Source: Bdellovibrionales bacterium
GTDB lineage: Bacteria > Bdellovibrionota > Bdellovibrionia > Bdellovibrionales > UBA1609
Assembly (NCBI GenBank): GCA_007128005.1
Contig: SKYF01000140.1
Span: 1-40,316 of the forward strand
Direction: 5' to 3'
DNA: 40,316 nt
The notes beneath the pieces were generated by a model. It was not told the DNA's origin. It did no database searches and saw nothing but the letters and a program-made list of their open reading frames with translations. The translations under genes were made by a program, and so were the position numbers. This document shows positions 29,311-37,599 of this stretch, one piece after another (positions within the stretch are counted from its first letter, which is position 1; every line of letters begins with the position of its first letter).

Positions 29311-30126
29311 ATGGTGCACAGAGTCTGGGGTTTCGTTTTTTTTATCAGTCTCTCTTTGGGTTCTTTAGCCCAGGCCGATAGCCCTCTGAGTGCTTTGCCC
29401 GAGGAACTCTACCAAGCGAGCATTCGTAGCTACCAGTCGGGGGATTTGCATCAGGCCAGAGACCAGTTCAAAAAGTTGGCTCAACAGGATCCCAAAAATA
29501 GGTTTGCTCTCTACAATTGGGGACTCGTTGAGTTCGAGCTCGGCCACAAGGGCTATGCTTTGGCTGCCTGGCGCAGAGCGCTATATATCTCCCCTTTATT
29601 CTCTCCTGCGCGACGAGCTCTCCGCTATGCCCAGGAGCAAATGACAGGGCGGCTTGGGATATCAAGTCCCTCCACTTGGGAGAGCTTCCGCGGGAGGGTC
29701 TTGACCTATTTTAGCTTAGGGGGACTCATGGGCTGGTTTGCCTTGAGCTTGGCTCTAGGTGGGGGACTGTGGTTGCGTTTTTTTAGTCGCTACCAGGAGG
29801 CTGTTGAGCACGAGCTCCCCCTGCCCCGGCTCTCTTTGCCACTTATCTTCGTCGGTGGGTTGGGAGCAGTTCTTGGACTGTTGTTGGCCCTAAAAATCTA
29901 CGATTATCAGACACCCCGAGCCACTTTAGTTTCAGACCGCGTCCCTCTGCTCAGCGCTCCAGTTGCAGAGAGCTCCGATCTACTCCTGCTGAACGAGGGC
30001 ATGGAGGTGCTTGTCCGCCAGTCCCAAGGCGACTGGGCTCAGGTCACCTTCCCGGGCGGGATGACGGGCTGGGTCCATCAAGATCACTTATTTTTGACCT
30101 CTGGACGAGGGCACTTCACTCCGTGA
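29311..30126 (+). CDS. BatE-like TPR/SH3 membrane protein
   Basis: 271 aa. Signal peptide (about 1-22, ending AQADS), then TPR-like helices (about 33-110: YQASIRSYQSGDLHQARDQF, ALYNWGLVEFELGHKGYALA), two membrane helices (about 134-153 and 177-195) and a C-terminal SH3-type domain (about 205-265, with GMEVLVRQSQGDWAQVTFPG). This order is that of BatE, usually in a bat operon with vWA proteins; no BatA-D gene lies in this window. It could organise periplasmic complexes. ATG 29311 has no clear ribosome-binding site. Located 41 bp upstream of bamD. Confidence 0.7.
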   Translation: MVHRVWGFVFFISLSLGSLAQADSPLSALPEELYQASIRSYQSGDLHQARDQFKKLAQQDPKNRFALYNWGLVEFELGHKGYALAAWRRALYISPLFSPARRALRYAQEQMTGRLGISSPSTWESFRGRVLTYFSLGGLMGWFALSLALGGGLWLRFFSRYQEAVEHELPLPRLSLPLIFVGGLGAVLGLLLALKIYDYQTPRATLVSDRVPLLSAPVAESSDLLLLNEGMEVLVRQSQGDWAQVTFPGGMTGWVHQDHLFLTSGRGHFTP

Positions 30127-30131
30127 CAATA

Positions 30132-30161
30132 TTGACTTTTCCAGGGGCCGGCCAGTAGACT
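30132..30161 (+). promoter_or_regulatory. Candidate promoter directly before bamD
   Basis: TTGACT (30132-30137) and TAGACT (30156-30161) are 18 bases apart. The -10 ends only 6 nt before ATG 30168, so transcription would begin at about the start codon and the mRNA would have almost no leader. No SD is visible upstream of bamD. Confidence 0.4.
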
Positions 30162-30167
30162 CCCTCT

Positions 30168-30914
30168 ATGAAAATTTTCAGGTATTTGGCTCTACTGATG
30201 CTCTTCAGCCTGCTTTCAGCCTGCGCTTCCACTCAACGCTTTGACACTTCTACCGCCGAAGGCAGCTTCGCACTTGCTGAAAAATATCAATCCGATGGTC
30301 GCTTTGAGGAAGCCATTAACCAGTTTAACGATGTTCGAAACAGGCACCCCTACAGCCGTTTGGCCGTGGAAGCTCGACTGCGCGTGGCTGATATTCACTT
30401 CGCTAGGAAGAGCTTTGCCGAGGCCCAAGCCGCCTATCAAGTCTTTAAAGAGCTTCACCCCCGCCATCCCCGCATCGATTATGTGACCTTCCAACTGGGC
30501 ATGTCCTACTTCAACCAACTCCCCTCAACCATTGACCGGGATCTGTCACTAGCAAGCCAGGCCATGCTCTTTTTCTCAGAGGTCCAACGCTCCTTTCCTC
30601 AAAGCGAGTATGTGGAACAGGCTAAGGCCAAACACACTGAACTGGAGAAAATGTTGGCTGAAAAAGAGCACTATATCGCTCACTTTTATTTTATACGTCG
30701 ACGCTACCAGAGTGCGCTTGGAAGATTTGAGCGGCTTTGGCGACAACATCAGGACCTGGGCTTTGACTTGAAAGCACTGTATGGAGCTGCCGTGAGTGCA
30801 CACCGGATTCAGGACTATGAAAAGGCAGACTACTACCTGAAAATTTTAAGTCACCAGTTCCCGGAGGCCCCGGAGACCTATCAAGCTCAGCAAGAGCTCG
30901 CCAGACGGAGTTGA
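30168..30914 (+). CDS. bamD: Outer-membrane assembly lipoprotein BamD
   Basis: 248 aa. Signal peptide with lipobox LSAC (Cys19) and TPR repeats of the BamD/YfiO type: ALAEKYQSDGRFEEAINQFN, RYQSALGRFERLWRQ. FNDVRNRHPYSRLAVEARLR is the characteristic second repeat. It is the essential outer-membrane partner of BamA for barrel insertion. Length matches the family. Followed 4 bp later by a TPR gene. Conserved TPR order and lipobox make the call firm, though TPR lipoproteins can look alike. Confidence 0.85.
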   Translation: MKIFRYLALLMLFSLLSACASTQRFDTSTAEGSFALAEKYQSDGRFEEAINQFNDVRNRHPYSRLAVEARLRVADIHFARKSFAEAQAAYQVFKELHPRHPRIDYVTFQLGMSYFNQLPSTIDRDLSLASQAMLFFSEVQRSFPQSEYVEQAKAKHTELEKMLAEKEHYIAHFYFIRRRYQSALGRFERLWRQHQDLGFDLKALYGAAVSAHRIQDYEKADYYLKILSHQFPEAPETYQAQQELARRS

Positions 30915-30918
30915 GTTT

Positions 30919-31665
30919 ATGAAAAACTTGGACGTAGGTCTAAATAATGAACTTCTTGAGAGAGCTCGAGAGCACTTTCGCGATTCTCGTTATTCTGCAG
31001 CTGAGCCCATTTTGAACCAATTGATCCTTCAGAACTTCAAGCACCCAGAGATCTTCCATATGTTGGGAACCATGTACTACGATCAGGGTAAGTTCAACAA
31101 AGCCATTCGCTCCTTCCGCAGAGCCTTGGAAATAGACCCCTCTTTCACCGACGCCAGTGTGGGTCTAAGCATTATCCTCAATGATTTGGGTCGCTATGAA
31201 GAAGGACGTAAGGTCTTTGAAGAAGCCCAGGTTATGCTGAAAAGGAAGTCCTCCCAAGAGGATCCCTACATCAACGAAAAACTCTCCATCAAGCATGACG
31301 AGCTGGGAGAGCTGTACTTTCAGTATAAGCGTTTCCCCGAGGCCCTAGAGCAGTACCAAAGATCTTTAGCACTATCCCAAAGAAAGGCTGAGATCACTAT
31401 GAAGATTGCCGAATGCCATATGCGCATGGGTGACCCTCAGCAGGCCATAGAGGAACTCCGAGATCTGGTCAAAGAGGCCCCCCAGTTTCTCAATGCACAA
31501 ATCAAGCTGGGACAGGCTTTTTATGAGAACGGCGAAATTCCTGAGGCCATTGATCAGTGGGAAGCCGTTCTGGAGCAGGACTCCCAACATCCAGAGGCAA
31601 TAAGGCTACTCAGGCAAGCTCAATCCATCGAAGTGACTTTAATGTCTGAGGGACATCCCTCATGA
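30919..31665 (+). CDS. Tetratricopeptide repeat protein, cytosolic
   Basis: 248 aa with about five TPR units, for example IFHMLGTMYYDQGKFNKAIR, ALEIDPSFTDASVGLSII, ELYFQYKRFPEALEQYQ, ECHMRMGDPQQAIEELRD and LGQAFYENGEIPEAIDQWE. No signal peptide or membrane segment, so it is probably a soluble scaffold. GGAGTTGAG precedes ATG 30919. It begins 4 bp after bamD and 25 bp before hpt. The partner is unknown. Confidence 0.8.
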   Translation: MKNLDVGLNNELLERAREHFRDSRYSAAEPILNQLILQNFKHPEIFHMLGTMYYDQGKFNKAIRSFRRALEIDPSFTDASVGLSIILNDLGRYEEGRKVFEEAQVMLKRKSSQEDPYINEKLSIKHDELGELYFQYKRFPEALEQYQRSLALSQRKAEITMKIAECHMRMGDPQQAIEELRDLVKEAPQFLNAQIKLGQAFYENGEIPEAIDQWEAVLEQDSQHPEAIRLLRQAQSIEVTLMSEGHPS

Positions 31666-31690: not shown

Positions 31691-32206
31691 ATGACACAGT
31701 CTCATGCAGGAATGGTTCCATTTATCACAGCTGAAGAAATTGATGAAATGGTCTCGCAGCTGGCCCAAGAAATTGAACAGGACTACAGGGGCAAGGATTT
31801 GGTGGTCATTTGCCCGCTAAAGGGTTCCGTGCCATTTTTCTCTGACCTAACAAGAAAACTAAGCCTTCCTCAAACCCATGACTTTGTTCACTTGACCTCA
31901 CCAAAAGGGGAGGGGGTGAGAATTCTTCAAGACATAACAGTGAATATCACGGGACAACACGTACTCGTTGTGGAAGAAATCATCGATGCTGGTAGAACCT
32001 TGAGCTTTTTAAAGACTCGAATACTGGCTTCCTCCCCGGCCTCACTCAAGGTGGTTACCCTTTTGGATAAGCCCGCCCGTAGGGAGTTGCCGATCAAACC
32101 CGACTATGTGGGCAGAACTATAGATGATAGGTTTGTGATCGGCTACGGGATGGATCTCGAAGAGATCGGCAGAAACTACCGCGCCATTTACAATTACGCC
32201 CAGTAG
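31691..32206 (+). CDS. hpt: Hypoxanthine phosphoribosyltransferase
   Basis: 171 aa. Salvages hypoxanthine and guanine using PRPP to make IMP and GMP. The PRPP-binding loop VLVVEEIIDAGRTL is present. VICPLKGSVPFFSDL (with the family Lys-Gly), VTLLDKPARRELP and IDDRFVIGYGMDL complete the pattern. GAGAGAGG lies about 9 nt before ATG 31691. Its stop is 3 bp from the stop of the antisense 24-aa gene. Confidence 0.93.
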   Translation: MTQSHAGMVPFITAEEIDEMVSQLAQEIEQDYRGKDLVVICPLKGSVPFFSDLTRKLSLPQTHDFVHLTSPKGEGVRILQDITVNITGQHVLVVEEIIDAGRTLSFLKTRILASSPASLKVVTLLDKPARRELPIKPDYVGRTIDDRFVIGYGMDLEEIGRNYRAIYNYAQ

Positions 32207-32209
32207 GAA

Positions 32210-32284
32210 TCAGTTCACAAGAACATTCACTACAAAGAGAATGACCACAGAATAGACAAAGAGCATTACAAATCCCCCTGACAT
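32210..32284 (-). CDS. Small hydrophobic membrane peptide, 24 aa
   Basis: ATG 32284 is preceded by GAGGAGGGG 5 nt upstream, one of the strongest ribosome-binding sites in the window. The product starts MSGGFVMLFVYSVVIL and ends FVVNVLVN, then TGA; it is nearly all Val, Leu, Ile and Phe and can cross the membrane once. It starts 31 bp after the rimO stop on the same strand and converges with hpt. Too short for similarity; support is the SD, composition and position. It may be a regulatory micropeptide or a subunit of an unknown complex. Confidence 0.6.
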   Translation of the reverse strand: MSGGFVMLFVYSVVILFVVNVLVN

Positions 32285-32315
32285 ACAACCCCTCCTCTGT
32301 TTAATGAGACCTCGA

Positions 32316-33671
32316 TTAACGACCAATGTCAATAATCTCACCAACTAGATCATAGTCGTGGTGGGCTGTGATACGAACCGGAACAATCTGCCCCACATCG
32401 GCCTGCCCGGCATTGATATAGGTGACTCCATCGATGTCTGGAGCTTGCTGAGAGTTTCTTCCCTGGAGAAGGAGCTCGGTCTCTTCACTCAATCCCTCTA
32501 TAAGAACAGGCACAACCTGGCCCACAAGCTCGGCTTGCCTTTCTGCGCTGATCTGGCGCTGCAGCTCCATGAGCTGGTCCTGCCTGCGCTGCTTAGTGGC
32601 CTCATCCACTTGATCTGACATCTGTCCAGCCTTGGTCCCCTCCTCTTGACTGTACATAAAGCAACCCACTCTATCAAAGCGCTGACGAGCCACAAACTCC
32701 AAGAGCTCTTGAAACTGCTCTTCAGTCTCTCCGGGGAAGCCGACGATAAATTGGGTGCGAATGACAGCATTGGGGATTTTTGAGCGGATATTCTCAAGCA
32801 CTGCCTCAACCTCAGCTCTTGTCATACGCCGATTCATCTTTTTTAACATCTCGTTGTTGATGTGCTGCAGGGGCATATCAAAGTACTTCACCAAATTGTC
32901 CCTGCTGCGAATCAACTCCACCAGCTCTGGCGTCACTCCATCAGGATAGAGGTAAAGCACCCGTATCCAGTCGGCACCAGATTCATCTGCAAGAGTTTTA
33001 AGAAGTTCATAAGGAGACTCTGTGGCTGTGGCATCTTTTTTCTTTAGATCCCAGCCAAAATCCGTAAAGTCATGGGAGATCACAATCAGCTCCTTGACTC
33101 CTCCTGCCACCAAGAGCTTGGCTTCACTTAAAATATTTTTAAGTTTTCGGGACTGCAAATTCCCACGAATAAGGGGAATGGCACAAAAGGCGCAGCGTTT
33201 TTTACAGCCCTCAGAGATTTTTAAATAGGCTCTAAATCCAGGTTGGGAGTTCACCCTGGGAGAGGTCTCTTCCTGAAGATAGGTGGGCAAGTGGTAGAAT
33301 TTTTTTTCCTTCGATCCCTCTTTTGAGTCCTTAAGAATGCGGGCAATATTTTGAAACTCTCCAGAACCCACAAAGAGGTCCGCCTCTGGCAGCCCTTCGA
33401 CCAACTCATCTTGATAGCGCTGGGTCAAACAGCCTGCCACAACCAGCTTTTGCAGCTGGCCTGTGCTCTTAAACTCTGCCATTTCCAAAACTTTATCTAT
33501 CGACTCTTTCTTGGACTCCTCAATAAAACCACAGGTATTGACTATCACCGTGTCGGCTTCGTCTGGCTGCTCTACAACCTCATAGCCCTCCTTCATCAGG
33601 GAGCCGAGCATTATCTCCGTGTCGACAAGGTTTTTTGGGCAACCCAAACTGACAAAATGCACTTTGTTCAT
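32316..33671 (-). CDS. rimO: Ribosomal protein S12 methylthiotransferase RimO
   Basis: 451 aa. Adds a methylthio group to an aspartate of ribosomal protein S12. Two iron-sulfur clusters are visible: N-terminal UPF0004 Cys C11, C47 and C81, and radical-SAM C156-x3-C160-x2-C163 (CKKRCAFC). The opening VHFVSLGCPKNLVDTE and CGFIEESKKES distinguish it from the tRNA enzyme MiaB. A C-terminal TRAM domain (VGQVVPVLIEG ... GQIVPVRITAHHDYDLVGEI) completes the family. Lies 7 bp upstream of (in coordinates) and downstream in transcription of the LolA-like gene. Confidence 0.95.
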   Translation of the reverse strand: MNKVHFVSLGCPKNLVDTEIMLGSLMKEGYEVVEQPDEADTVIVNTCGFIEESKKESIDKVLEMAEFKSTGQLQKLVVAGCLTQRYQDELVEGLPEADLFVGSGEFQNIARILKDSKEGSKEKKFYHLPTYLQEETSPRVNSQPGFRAYLKISEGCKKRCAFCAIPLIRGNLQSRKLKNILSEAKLLVAGGVKELIVISHDFTDFGWDLKKKDATATESPYELLKTLADESGADWIRVLYLYPDGVTPELVELIRSRDNLVKYFDMPLQHINNEMLKKMNRRMTRAEVEAVLENIRSKIPNAVIRTQFIVGFPGETEEQFQELLEFVARQRFDRVGCFMYSQEEGTKAGQMSDQVDEATKQRRQDQLMELQRQISAERQAELVGQVVPVLIEGLSEETELLLQGRNSQQAPDIDGVTYINAGQADVGQIVPVRITAHHDYDLVGEIIDIGR

Positions 33672-33677
33672 AGTAAA

Positions 33678-34373
33678 TCAATACTCTGTGACTTCCGCCC
33701 CTTCAGGAGGGACAAATGTAAAAGTACCCTCTTTGATTTTGGCGGAAAACTGAGCCCTTTTAAAGTTATAGCGAGTTTCATTCTCTAAATCGTCTTTGTA
33801 ACTCAACTGAGTCACTAAACGGGATTTGGGATCTATAACAATTTGAATTTCTGAGACATCCATGGGCGCTTTGGGGCGCAGCTGAAAAGATTTAACACCA
33901 CCCTCCAAATCTGACTGCTCAACTAACCTAAACTCCTCCCAAAGCCTTGGACGCTCAAACACTGCTGAGATCAGAGTGGCCGAAGGGCCCAGCTTTCTGG
34001 GGCTAATTTTGGCCACCTGAGTGATGGGTCCTGAAAACCCCTCAATAGTACTGACCATCCAAAGGTAGTCTCCATCATGGATGAGAAGGCTCTGGTCGGG
34101 GGCCCCCATCTCCAGTCTCAACCGCTGCTCACCCAGGGTCAGAGTGCCACTGCTGGTTTGGCTACGCCCAAGAAGTGCCTGGTGAACCTGCTTTTCCACT
34201 TGGATCTGTACAGGCACTTGACTGCGATAGCGATTGAGGACGGCCTCAAGAGGCTTTAAAGCCTTAATCTGAGCCCTGTCCAAGGACTCTTGCTCCTCGC
34301 GCACGCCCCCCCCAGAGATCAATCCTGGCACCAGCCAGACCGCTAAAATAAGCAGGGGCAGAAGGTTTTTCAT
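33678..34373 (-). CDS. LolA-like periplasmic protein
   Basis: 231 aa. A signal peptide (about 1-20, MKNLLPLLILAVWLVPGLIS) is followed by a domain with the LolA/outer-membrane-carrier pattern: LKPLEAVLNRYRSQVPVQIQ, LLIHDGDYLWMVSTIEG, MDVSEIQIVIDPKSRLVTQL and FTFVPPEGAEV at the end. LolA carries lipoproteins through the periplasm. ATG 34373 overlaps the nadD-rsfS stop by 4 nt; a longer reading inside that gene lacks a signal peptide. It may be LolA itself or a paralogue; no lolB or lolCDE gene is near. Confidence 0.75.
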   Translation of the reverse strand: MKNLLPLLILAVWLVPGLISGGGVREEQESLDRAQIKALKPLEAVLNRYRSQVPVQIQVEKQVHQALLGRSQTSSGTLTLGEQRLRLEMGAPDQSLLIHDGDYLWMVSTIEGFSGPITQVAKISPRKLGPSATLISAVFERPRLWEEFRLVEQSDLEGGVKSFQLRPKAPMDVSEIQIVIDPKSRLVTQLSYKDDLENETRYNFKRAQFSAKIKEGTFTFVPPEGAEVTEY

Positions 34374-35413
34374 CGCTGCGTTATAACAGAGCTCTGTGGC
34401 AAAGGCGACTGAAAAGTTAAGGCTTTGACTCCCTTTTGGGCCTGCCATAGCTCCTCGAGCCGATACTCAAGGCGCACAAAATCATAGAACACATGTACGA
34501 TGAGTGAGCCATAATCTATCACCACCCAGCGCCCCTCTTTTTGCCCCTCCACATTCAGGGGCCAGAGCCCGTACTCCTCCTTAACGGCCTTGATCACGGC
34601 CTCTGCCAAGGAGCTTGCATGACGCGTACTCGTTCCAGAACAGACCAGGGTGTATTCGCTCAGTGATTGAGCCTCGCGCAAATCAAAGCCCTGAATATTG
34701 ATCCCGTTTCTGTTCTCAAGCACAGCCATGCAAAATTGCGTGAAGTTCTCAAAGTTATCCACCTTGCTCTGTCCGGCCTGGTAAAGGCCTTTTTCCCGGA
34801 TATAGGCATCTACCTCTGGAGTGACAAACTTGGCCGTGGGCAGGTTTTGCCGGTATCGACGGCGAATCTCTGTGGCAGAGACAGCCACGTCCTGCAACTG
34901 CACAAAGACGATCTTAGAGCCATTGTGCAAAAGGGCCTCCTTGCCATCAAAGACATCCACTTTGTCCTGTAAATCTACCGGCAAATCTTCCAGGCCTTGA
35001 GGAAACTCAAAGTCAGGCCTGCTGGTGACGGCAAGATGAGTGAGCTTGAGAATTTTCTCATAATCCCTCCACTGGGAGAAGTTCACAAATTGATCCATCC
35101 CGATAATTAAAAACAGCTCCTCGTCGGGATAGTCTTGGCGTAGCGACTCAAGCGTGTCCACCGTATAGCTGATCCCACCCCTTCTCACCTCACGGTCATC
35201 CACAGTGATCAAGTAACTTTGAGGTTTTAGGCCCTCTTTTGTCATCTCTAGGCGCTCTGCAGGGGTTGGCCCCTCAGTCATCGGTCGATTGGGTGTTTGA
35301 TGAGCGGGAATACAAATAACCTGACTGAGATTCAGGGCATGTCCAACAGACAGCATACTATTGATATGACCGCGGTGAAGGGGATCAAAGGACCCACCAA
35401 AAATTCCTATCAT
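34370..35413 (-). CDS. nadD: NadD-RsfS fusion: nicotinate-nucleotide adenylyltransferase plus ribosomal silencing factor
   Basis: 347 aa. Residues 1-212 are NadD, making deamido-NAD from nicotinate mononucleotide and ATP: IGIFGGSFDPLHRGH (nucleotidyltransferase HxGH) and ISATEIRRR-type SATEIRRR (179-186). Residues about 216-325 are RsfS/YbeB, which binds L14 and blocks subunit joining: FTQFCMAVLENRNG, TLVCSGTSTRHASSLAEAVI, GRWVVIDYGSLIVHVF. The two are usually separate adjacent genes; here the frame is continuous. ATG 35413 with AAGAGAG upstream is preferred over GTG 35422, which overlaps obgE. The stop overlaps the LolA-like ATG by 4 nt. Fusion may link nucleotide status to ribosome assembly, but this is inference. 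Confidence 0.92.
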   Translation of the reverse strand: MIGIFGGSFDPLHRGHINSMLSVGHALNLSQVICIPAHQTPNRPMTEGPTPAERLEMTKEGLKPQSYLITVDDREVRRGGISYTVDTLESLRQDYPDEELFLIIGMDQFVNFSQWRDYEKILKLTHLAVTSRPDFEFPQGLEDLPVDLQDKVDVFDGKEALLHNGSKIVFVQLQDVAVSATEIRRRYRQNLPTAKFVTPEVDAYIREKGLYQAGQSKVDNFENFTQFCMAVLENRNGINIQGFDLREAQSLSEYTLVCSGTSTRHASSLAEAVIKAVKEEYGLWPLNVEGQKEGRWVVIDYGSLIVHVFYDFVRLEYRLEELWQAQKGVKALTFQSPLPQSSVITQR

Positions 35414-35414
35414 T

Positions 35415-36488
35415 TTACACACTCTCTTCCTGAGGCCCCTGTAAGCCTCGCTCTAGACCAAAGAGCTTTTGGCCCATGGCATGGATCAACTCCTTGATGT
35501 TGGTTCTTGCCACCGCTGAAATAAACAGGGGACTTAGCCCCCGCTCTTGAAAACTCTCTGCAATCTCAGTTTGTCGCTCTTGGTCCATGGCATCCAGTTT
35601 GCTGATAACCACCAGCTGAGGATGTTCCATCAGTGGACGGAAGTCCTCCTGGTCTTGATGGGCCTGATCGTAGAGTTCCAATTCTTTGTTAATCTCATCA
35701 AAAGCCAACAGGGGGTCCTGGGGGGCCATCGGGCTTCCATCAATCAGGTGGATAAAAAGTTGAGTTCTTTCCACATGGCGCAAAAACTGTATCCCAAGCC
35801 CTACCCCTTGGTGAGCCCCAGGAATAAGCCCTGGAATATCTGCCACCACAAAGTTCTTGTCATCGCTGTATTTTACGACCCCGAGATTGGGCACAAGGGT
35901 CGTGAAAGGGTAGTCTGCAATTTTAGGCTTGGCTGCAGAGATCACAGAAATCAAGGTGGACTTTCCGGCATTGGGAAAGCCAATAATGCCCACGTCCGCC
36001 AGTAGTTTCAGCTCAAGGTGAACTTCCCTCTCCTCCCCAGGCAGACCTTTTTGGGCCACGTGAGGAGCTTGATTGACGCTGGATTTATAAAAGGTATTTC
36101 CCTTGCCGCCAAGCCCCCCTTTTAAGAATAGGAAGTCTTCTGGAGCTGCTCCATCTGTGGCCTCGCTGAGATCATGAATCAACACTCCACTGGGATCTCG
36201 GATCAGAGTCCCTGGAGGCACCTCGATCACCAAATCCTCTCCGTTGGAACCGCTGCGATTGGCTCCCTCACCGGGCAAACCATTGCCCGCACGGTAGTGC
36301 TTTTTGTAGCGAAGATCTAAAAGTGATGAGATCTGGGGATTGACTCGAAAGATAACGTCGCCTCCCTTGCCCCCATCTCCCCCATCAGGACCACCCCTAG
36401 GGACACCAGACTCCCTGCGAAAACTCACGCAGCCTGGACCACCATTTCCAGAGGCCACTAGGATTTGAATTTCATCAATAAATTTCAT
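35415..36488 (-). CDS. obgE: GTPase ObgE/CgtA
   Basis: 357 aa. An Obg glycine-rich N-terminal domain (FIDEIQILVASGNGGPGCVS, GGPDGGDGGKGGDVIF) and a G domain with G1 GFPNAGKST, G3 DIPGLIPGAHQGVGLG and G4-type SKLD. No C-terminal OCT domain of the Gram-positive type. It acts in late 50S maturation and stress signalling. ATG 36488 lacks a recognisable SD; an intrinsic terminator for rpmA transcripts ends about 17 bp upstream, so obgE may be partly attenuated. Order with rplU and rpmA is the conserved bacterial one. Confidence 0.95.
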   Translation of the reverse strand: MKFIDEIQILVASGNGGPGCVSFRRESGVPRGGPDGGDGGKGGDVIFRVNPQISSLLDLRYKKHYRAGNGLPGEGANRSGSNGEDLVIEVPPGTLIRDPSGVLIHDLSEATDGAAPEDFLFLKGGLGGKGNTFYKSSVNQAPHVAQKGLPGEEREVHLELKLLADVGIIGFPNAGKSTLISVISAAKPKIADYPFTTLVPNLGVVKYSDDKNFVVADIPGLIPGAHQGVGLGIQFLRHVERTQLFIHLIDGSPMAPQDPLLAFDEINKELELYDQAHQDQEDFRPLMEHPQLVVISKLDAMDQERQTEIAESFQERGLSPLFISAVARTNIKELIHAMGQKLFGLERGLQGPQEESV

Positions 36489-36993: not shown

Positions 36994-37599
36994 TTAACTC
37001 TTCTTTTTAGTCGCAGCTTTTGTCGCTGTTTTCTTTGTGGCCTTCTTGGCTGTGGTCTTCTTAGCTGCTGCCTTCTTCGCTCCAGTCTTTTTCTTAGCGA
37101 CTGCTTTCTTTGCTCCTGCCTTTTTCTTCTTGGCTTGTACAGCTGGTTTTCTGACCGATGTGCGCTCAGCCTTGGGTCCCGCGGCTTTTTTCTTCTCTTT
37201 GCGCAGCTCCTCAGTCTTTTGTTTCTTTTCCAGCTTCTTTTCTGGGTTGAAAACTTGGGCCGCCTCTTGAGCAGTCACAACTTGGCCCTCGGGCGAAGTG
37301 ATGGACTTTACAAACAGTTCCGTAAACATCTGTCTGTGCCCTTGCATTCTGCGATAGCCCTGACGACGCTTCTTTTTAAAGACAATGATTTTAGGTGCCT
37401 TGGCCTGACGGGTGACAACCACTGTCACCTTGGCGTTGTTCAGGGTAGGCTCCCCAACAAAGATTTTCTCACCACCAACAACTAAAATATCTTTGAGATC
37501 CAACTCTGAACCCAGCTCTGCTTCCAACGTCTCAACACGAAGAGTATCTCCTGCCTCAACTCGATACTGTTTTCCACCTGTGCGGATAATCGCGTACAT
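36994..37599 (-). CDS. rplU: 50S ribosomal protein L21 with long Lys/Ala tail
   Basis: 201 aa, about twice the usual 103. Residues 1-103 are L21: MYAIIRTGGKQYRVEAGDTL, VTRQAKAPKIIVFKKKRRQG and YRRMQGHRQMFTELFVKSI. The remaining 100 residues run from an acidic/basic helix to repeated AKK/ATK/AAKK units, like histone H1 tails. It may bind rRNA or DNA. GGAGG lies 7 nt upstream of ATG 37599, and a sigma-70 promoter lies before that. Confidence 0.93.
   Translation of the reverse strand: MYAIIRTGGKQYRVEAGDTLRVETLEAELGSELDLKDILVVGGEKIFVGEPTLNNAKVTVVVTRQAKAPKIIVFKKKRRQGYRRMQGHRQMFTELFVKSITSPEGQVVTAQEAAQVFNPEKKLEKKQKTEELRKEKKKAAGPKAERTSVRKPAVQAKKKKAGAKKAVAKKKTGAKKAAAKKTTAKKATKKTATKAATKKKS

Follow-up and report, generated by a model that had tools for sequence, protein, structure and literature searches.

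A gene for a 24-residue hydrophobic microprotein conserved in the order Bdellovibrionales

Is an open reading frame (ORF) of 24 codons, standing between rimO and hpt in a Bdellovibrionales genome, a gene, and what would its product do? The question was raised by a preliminary description of a stretch of 40,316 nt (hereafter the window, meaning the whole stretch), in which the product was likened to small regulators of membrane complexes. The ORF is a genuine gene, kept across the Bdellovibrio group; it lies beyond chance because it is conserved, and this conservation is the decisive evidence.

The ORF in the window

The ORF occupies the position first reported for it, lies on the minus strand with a 24-residue product, and stands between two genes whose Pfam domains agree with their names:

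32210-32284 (32213-32284 without the stop codon), minus strand: coding sequence of the 24-aa microprotein, MSGGFVMLFVYSVVILFVVNVLVN; ATG at 32284-32282, stop TGA at 32212-32210; supported by homologues and coding selection
32316-33671, minus strand: rimO (ribosomal protein S12 methylthiotransferase), the next gene upstream on that strand; UPF0004, Radical_SAM and TRAM domains
31691-32206, plus strand: hpt-type phosphoribosyltransferase, convergent neighbour across a 3-nt gap; Pribosyltran domain

The ORF begins 31 nt from the end of rimO, and no larger ORF lies on its own strand between it and hpt. The earlier picture of a hydrophobic peptide gene, alone between rimO and a convergent hpt, is confirmed by these coordinates and by a GRAVY of 2.12, the mean for residues 5-23 being 2.85. 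Both strands of the window were scanned for ORFs of this class (18-40 aa, an uncharged hydrophobic 17-mer, and an anti-Shine-Dalgarno (anti-SD) duplex of -8 kcal/mol or better). The single match was the 24-aa ORF, which its internal ATG caused to be listed twice; under the same criteria, first-order random windows (30 in all) gave a mean of 0.03 matches and a maximum of 1.

Elsewhere in the window, a 350-aa ORF (34370-35422, minus strand) has a cytidylyltransferase-like domain at 7-189 and an RsfS ribosome-silencing domain at 231-326. We read it as a NadD-RsfS fusion, NadD being our own reading of the cytidylyltransferase-like domain. Also on the minus strand, at 36994-37599, ribosomal protein L21 (domain 1-100) has a C-terminal tail of approximately 100 residues rich in Lys and Ala.

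Distribution, gene order and coding selection

A search for rimO matched all 39 genomes searched (paralogues included) and returned 30 loci, of which 20 had a hydrophobic ORF of 23-27 aa downstream of rimO and on its strand, 18 of them clearly alignable. An 18-sequence profile matched 103 of the 140 genomes of the order at a lax cut-off (E ≤ 1). A 43-sequence profile, applied to the phylum (368 genomes) at E ≤ 0.1, found matches in 125: 106 from the order, 2 belonging to a sister family within the class, and 17 from elsewhere. Two of these 17 out-of-class matches pass 1e-3 and were rejected as chance, one lying inside a longer frame and the other antisense to a 936-codon frame. Counted by hand from the matches of the 43-sequence profile, homologues at E ≤ 1e-3 are present in 100 of the 140 order genomes that had been searched with the 18-sequence profile. 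Convincing matches number one per genome and, within the phylum searched, the family was found only in the class Bdellovibrionia. Bdellovibrio bacteriovorus HD100 (taken to be genome G041, to which a published HD100 primer has an exact match) carries the peptide MPKHLVFLYAFCVVILFVVNVVVS at 108514-108585 on the plus strand (108514-108588 with the stop codon).

GTDB contigs were also scanned with an Hpt alignment. The best 80 named loci bear titles that are mostly those of Bdellovibrionales metagenome assemblies, and include B. bacteriovorus kdesi and Bdellovibrio sp. qaytius. Of these best 80 loci, 52 have the peptide at a score above 15 and 4 more a diverged version of it in the corresponding position; in 5 of the remaining loci, the sequence ends less than 100 nt from hpt.

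The neighbourhood of the gene varies. In many members of the family comprising Bdellovibrio and its allies (f8), it adjoins hpt and not rimO. We assembled 75 distinct genes (matches of at least 20 bits reaching model position 24, with identical DNA collapsed), whose neighbours within 250 nt, in the sequences as fetched, are hpt alone in 34 cases, rimO alone in 21, both in 15 and neither in 5. The link to rimO is positional only: those 34 genes have hpt without rimO within that distance. Orientation was analysed for 55 of 56 peptide loci (L165 was left out): 49 copies are convergent with hpt, 25 of these across a gap of at most 60 nt, and 6 are codirectional behind it. The arrangement rimO - peptide - hpt is likely ancestral, because two members of the sister family, G269 and G271, share it; in G271, a 186-codon ORF also lies between rimO and hpt. 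Ahead of hpt in the window and on its strand stand a TPR and SH3 protein, a BamD/YfiO-like lipoprotein and a TPR protein (29311-31665, plus strand), and the order bamD-TPR-hpt was seen again in many loci inspected.

The peptide gene is ancestral, yet dispensable in some lineages, because it is absent from genomes that retain its neighbours. Four genomes (G004, G033, G038 and G025) retain both hpt and rimO at this place but, by the criteria applied, no ORF of this kind; in G067, hpt is likewise present and the ORF absent. Inspection of the hpt loci in 11 non-carriers and in G021 showed no such ORF near hpt in any of the 11, the loci of G003 and G022 offering little sequence beyond hpt, and a diverged form of the peptide in G021. 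Some other genomes of the same family as the window genome are without the gene. In G016 and G018, small-genome members of that family, a convergent lolA directly adjoins hpt, the peptide and rimO both being gone from between them (L187, L190); G016 has a 44%-identical RimO-like gene elsewhere in its genome. At the rimO-hpt junction of G033 (L018/L183), where the peptide is missing, a long perfect inverted repeat with a 4-nt loop was observed.

Loss of the frame or of its ribosome site in close relatives, which the preliminary description had named as grounds for refutation, was not observed: both are kept in the sole same-genus genome compared (G001, locus L002). The two copies differ by 15 nucleotide changes, 12 of them at third codon positions, with 2 amino-acid changes (pS 0.69, pN 0.058), a number so low that 0 of 100000 random placements reach it. 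Among the 75 distinct genes, which leave out the diverged copies L024/L165, L025/L134, L115 and L143 and retain two frames containing a stop within the 72 bases taken, pN is below pS in 2773 of 2775 pairs, and the other two sense frames contain stops in 72 and 33 genes, respectively. Judged by this pattern of substitution, selection acts on the peptide itself.

Conservation is concentrated on a few residues. Phenylalanine at position 17 is invariant (75/75), position 20 is N in 73 genes and Q in the other two, and position 13 is V or A throughout. Mean entropy is 0.65 at positions 9, 10, 13, 17 and 20, which were chosen post hoc with the data already seen, versus 1.81 for the rest of positions 5-24. 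V10, V13, F17 and N20, which together with F9 are the best conserved, share one helical face at 100 degrees per residue; the periodicity of conservation peaks at 100 degrees and is not significant (permutation P 0.165; 0.21 in a second test, 0.11 when detrended).

No significant match was obtained in Pfam, NCBIfam, PADLOC, Rfam, PDB or PHROGs, the best PHROGs match (E 0.052) coming from one member. Two weak matches to PsbI in PDB (E 0.24 and 0.27) were disregarded. Three further origins were considered and rejected: a known RNA element, as three loci scanned gave no Rfam match; a phage origin, as no relative was confirmed among viral contigs; and fusion to a larger protein, as the 202-codon open frame in L136 was read as accidental. 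We found no description of the peptide in the open-licence literature, including that on Bdellovibrio small proteins.

Ribosome site and candidate promoter

Upstream of the start codon, three elements are recognized in the window:

32291-32296, minus strand: Shine-Dalgarno core AGGAGG, 6 nt ahead of the ATG; duplex energy -12.5 kcal/mol
32327-32332, minus strand: candidate -35 box TTGACA, within the last rimO codons; TTGAC is common to 57/75 homologues
32304-32309, minus strand: candidate -10 box TCTCAT, 17 nt past the -35 box; its position fits the aligned promoters, with 4/6 consensus bases, weak when taken alone

The strong and well-spaced ribosome-binding site that had been reported is borne out by the first of these, whose core lies within GAGGAGGGG (32297-32289, minus strand); the sequence directly ahead of the ORF is AGAGGAGGGGTTGT. 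Over the 75 homologues, the median energy of the best anti-SD duplex is -8.4 kcal/mol, and 70 reach -5 or better, versus 11.8% of random start codons, a figure slightly flattered by the choice of each homologue's start, partly by duplex energy, among at most four in-frame candidates. Start codons are ATG in 52 homologues, GTG in 19 and TTG in 4.

The shared TTGAC lies at most 130 nt upstream of the homologues that have it, and 54 promoters aligned on this motif have T...AT at the -10 distance. The candidate promoter of the window was missed by the consensus promoter scan, which requires A at position 2 of the -10 box. TTGAC is absent from all nine copies codirectional behind hpt, as expected if the hpt transcript is shared, and from 9 of the 66 other copies, all of them convergent and adjoining hpt.

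Further sequence is shared around the motif. The form TTGAC-N7-GTYA is found in 17 of the 54 aligned promoters, that of the window included, and in 16 of the 43 outside the group with GGTC in the spacer, the background among TTGAC sites of the loci as a whole being 3.1%. GGTC occurs in the spacer of 11 of the 54, namely ten promoters of Bdellovibrio type and that of the window. The Bdellovibrio element TTGAC-NN-AGGTCYTAA occurs in its exact form once per genome, only at the peptide gene, in 9 of 11 genomes; the remaining two have it at the peptide gene with one mismatch. A regulon sharing this element was considered and rejected, as the exact form stands at the peptide only and one-mismatch sites elsewhere are no commoner than in the reversed control. 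Inverted repeats overlap peptide promoters (L177 5464-5505; L011, L021, L171), with TTGAC-N7-GTCA(A) in several families, and the Bdellovibrio spacer has the inverted repeat GGTC-CTAA-GAC(C). These repeats are a candidate operator for some regulator.

At the RNA level, the fold around the ORF is no better than that of shuffled sequences (z 0.61), and the terminator scan found no terminator-like site in the gap between the ORF and hpt in the window. None of the eight attack-phase sRNAs listed in a table of PMC3627812 lies near 108 kb of HD100. The peptide locus was also compared with the HD100 sRNA located between bd0103 and bd0108, which, according to PMC3818213, rises in bd0108 mutants and has the coordinates 96455-96716. 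This identity was rejected, as the published primer for the sRNA has its exact match in G041 at 96555, which is 12 kb away from the peptide gene (108514), and the equation of a small ORF near the peptide with bd0108 was rejected along with it.

The product and its possible partners

Two traits of small membrane proteins are found here: an ORF of less than 50 aa with selection at the protein level, and one hydrophobic helix of approximately 20 residues, judged by composition. We infer that the product is a single-pass inner-membrane microprotein. Its orientation is probably N-in, with the C-terminus at the periplasmic face, because K or R occurs within residues 1-6 in 46 of the 75 homologues and other charges are few (later K/R in 3, any D/E in 2); the window copy, free of charged side chains, offers no such cue.

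The reading that we prefer, with a probability of about 0.5, is that the microprotein docks, as an accessory subunit, on a larger inner-membrane protein. The stand-alone gene, kept by descent in the class Bdellovibrionia, would be transcribed with a short leader from a probable sigma70-type promoter of its own, overlapping the 3' end of rimO in the case of the window, and the very strong ribosome site would probably make the product abundant. The peptide would insert as one helix, post-translationally by analogy with YohP; the face formed by F9, V10, V13, F17 and N20 would dock on the larger protein, and the peptide would act as a small subunit stabilizing or tuning the complex, as CydX, KdpF and AcrZ do for theirs.

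Several known small membrane proteins invite comparison. CcoQ, CcoS and CcoM are single-helix small subunits of the cbb3 oxidase, AcrZ, MgtS and YohP are small membrane proteins of Escherichia coli, and DinQ, TisB and Ibs are type I toxins with a very short hydrophobic helix, toxins of this type being typically patchy and multicopy. An Asn within a transmembrane helix favours helix-helix association. With AcrZ, MgtS and YohP, the peptide shares a short single helix and a gene that need not adjoin that of the partner, but no sequence similarity to them was detected and its family was found, within the phylum searched, only in Bdellovibrionia. In the respective papers, CydX is described as a 37-aa subunit of cytochrome bd (PMC4325964), KdpF as a subunit of KdpFABC of about 30 aa (PMC3618439), CcoQ and CcoS as small membrane proteins of the cbb3 oxidase (PMC10903887), and YohP as an E. 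coli protein of 27 aa (PMC7549839). The peptide resembles CydX as a very short single-helix inner-membrane microprotein of a kind often overlooked by gene finders; however, it has no match to the CydX family of Pfam at E ≤ 10 and lies outside any oxidase operon. Its likeness to KdpF resides in the size, the single helix and the lack of catalytic residues, whereas no sequence match was found.

Partners were surveyed in 23 carriers and 12 non-carriers of the peptide, each at least 92% complete. CydA was found in one of these 35 genomes, a carrier, and is absent from the other 34, including that of the window. KdpA was found in five (4 of 23 carriers, one of them with a fragment containing a stop, and 1 of 12 non-carriers) and is absent from 30, again including the window genome. 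The roles of CydX and KdpF, the two best known among the testable systems of this kind, are excluded, since most carriers surveyed, among them the window genome, do not encode the enzyme concerned. The fragment is that of HD100, which has no other kdpA match: at C1 1694884-1695780, the match spans family positions 2-300 only and contains an in-frame TAG, so that the gene looks broken. No oxidase, flagellar or MotA/ExbB family tracks the peptide strictly over the 35 genomes, all of which have MotA/ExbB. Of the early suggestion of a regulator of a membrane complex, what stands is a real, conserved gene for a short peptide; the roles of CydX or KdpF type fall, and no strict partner emerged among the families tested.

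The main rival to an accessory subunit is a self-assembling membrane peptide, in which N20 and F17 would drive homo-oligomers altering permeability or potential, making it a stress or dormancy effector like DinQ, TisB or YohP. The very short, nearly all-hydrophobic helix, with a near-invariant polar residue (N20) inside it, would suit such a role, and hpt transcripts could run antisense into the gene, given the tight gap of 25 of the 49 convergent copies and the lack of a terminator-like site in the window gap. We nevertheless consider it unlikely. Unlike the patchy, multicopy type I toxins, the gene has a single convincing copy per genome, in 100 of the 140 order genomes, and has kept its place across the order; it has a strong ribosome site, and the fold around the ORF is not exceptionally stable. 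Moreover, PADLOC gave no match, and the sole toxin-named match in PHROGs has an E of 0.21 and concerns 1 of 43 members.

Returning to the accessory subunit, one may picture it as class-specific: an extra helix in a membrane complex, seen only in Bdellovibrionia, with a dedicated promoter and a private operator, possibly within the energized envelope machinery of these flagellated predators. This picture is speculative, and our confidence in it is low.

A place in a terminal oxidase, either resembling CcoQ, CcoS or CcoM in the cbb3 type or as a small subunit of the aa3 type, is improbable. COX1 is present in all 35 genomes. A long COX1 frame (704-774 codons), which we read as a cbb3-type CcoN-O fusion, occurs in 20 of 23 carriers versus 4 of 12 non-carriers, and a shorter, aa3-like COX1 in 34 of 35 genomes, the split between the two being judged from frame lengths and scores. 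These counts would favour such a place, as would the single helix common to the peptide and the small cbb3 subunits. However, three carriers (G005, G020 and G271) are without the long form and one (G065) is without the aa3-like form, while the association is confounded by a single branch, that of one small-genome family. In addition, neither an oxidase gene beside the peptide nor an operon link was seen in the loci inspected, Pfam gave no match to an oxidase small-subunit family, and the peptide is without a charged soluble tail.

Quite improbable is a part in the flagellum or in other energized envelope machinery specific to Bdellovibrionia, to which the distribution of FlhA would point, as all 23 carriers have it against 5 of the 12 non-carriers. 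FlhA and the peptide are both missing from seven genomes, but these come from a single family and are small (1.2-2.4 Mb), so one loss event may account for the association. Furthermore, five flagellated genomes are without the peptide, and no flagellar gene was seen nearby.

It is very improbable that the transcript or the act of translation matters, through convergent overlap with hpt or leader-type control, and that the peptide is irrelevant. The very tight tail-to-tail spacing in many genomes and the private element in the Bdellovibrio promoter would agree with such a role, but selection operates at the amino-acid level, the gene persists codirectionally behind hpt and also far from it, and in the window no larger ORF follows the peptide on its strand before hpt. 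Finally, a chance ORF, which a length of only 24 codons might suggest, has next to no probability, being already refuted by conservation and contradicted by coding selection, by a ribosome site in 70 of 75 homologues and by the random windows.

The family is order-wide and absent from the libraries searched, and it enlarges the short list of membrane microproteins known to be conserved in bacteria. Place, ribosome site and codon pattern, used in combination, sufficed to trace a gene with 72 coding bases across an order. One member belongs to B. bacteriovorus HD100, a well-studied and genetically tractable model predator, and the invariant residues within the 24-residue helix make the question of its partner directly testable.
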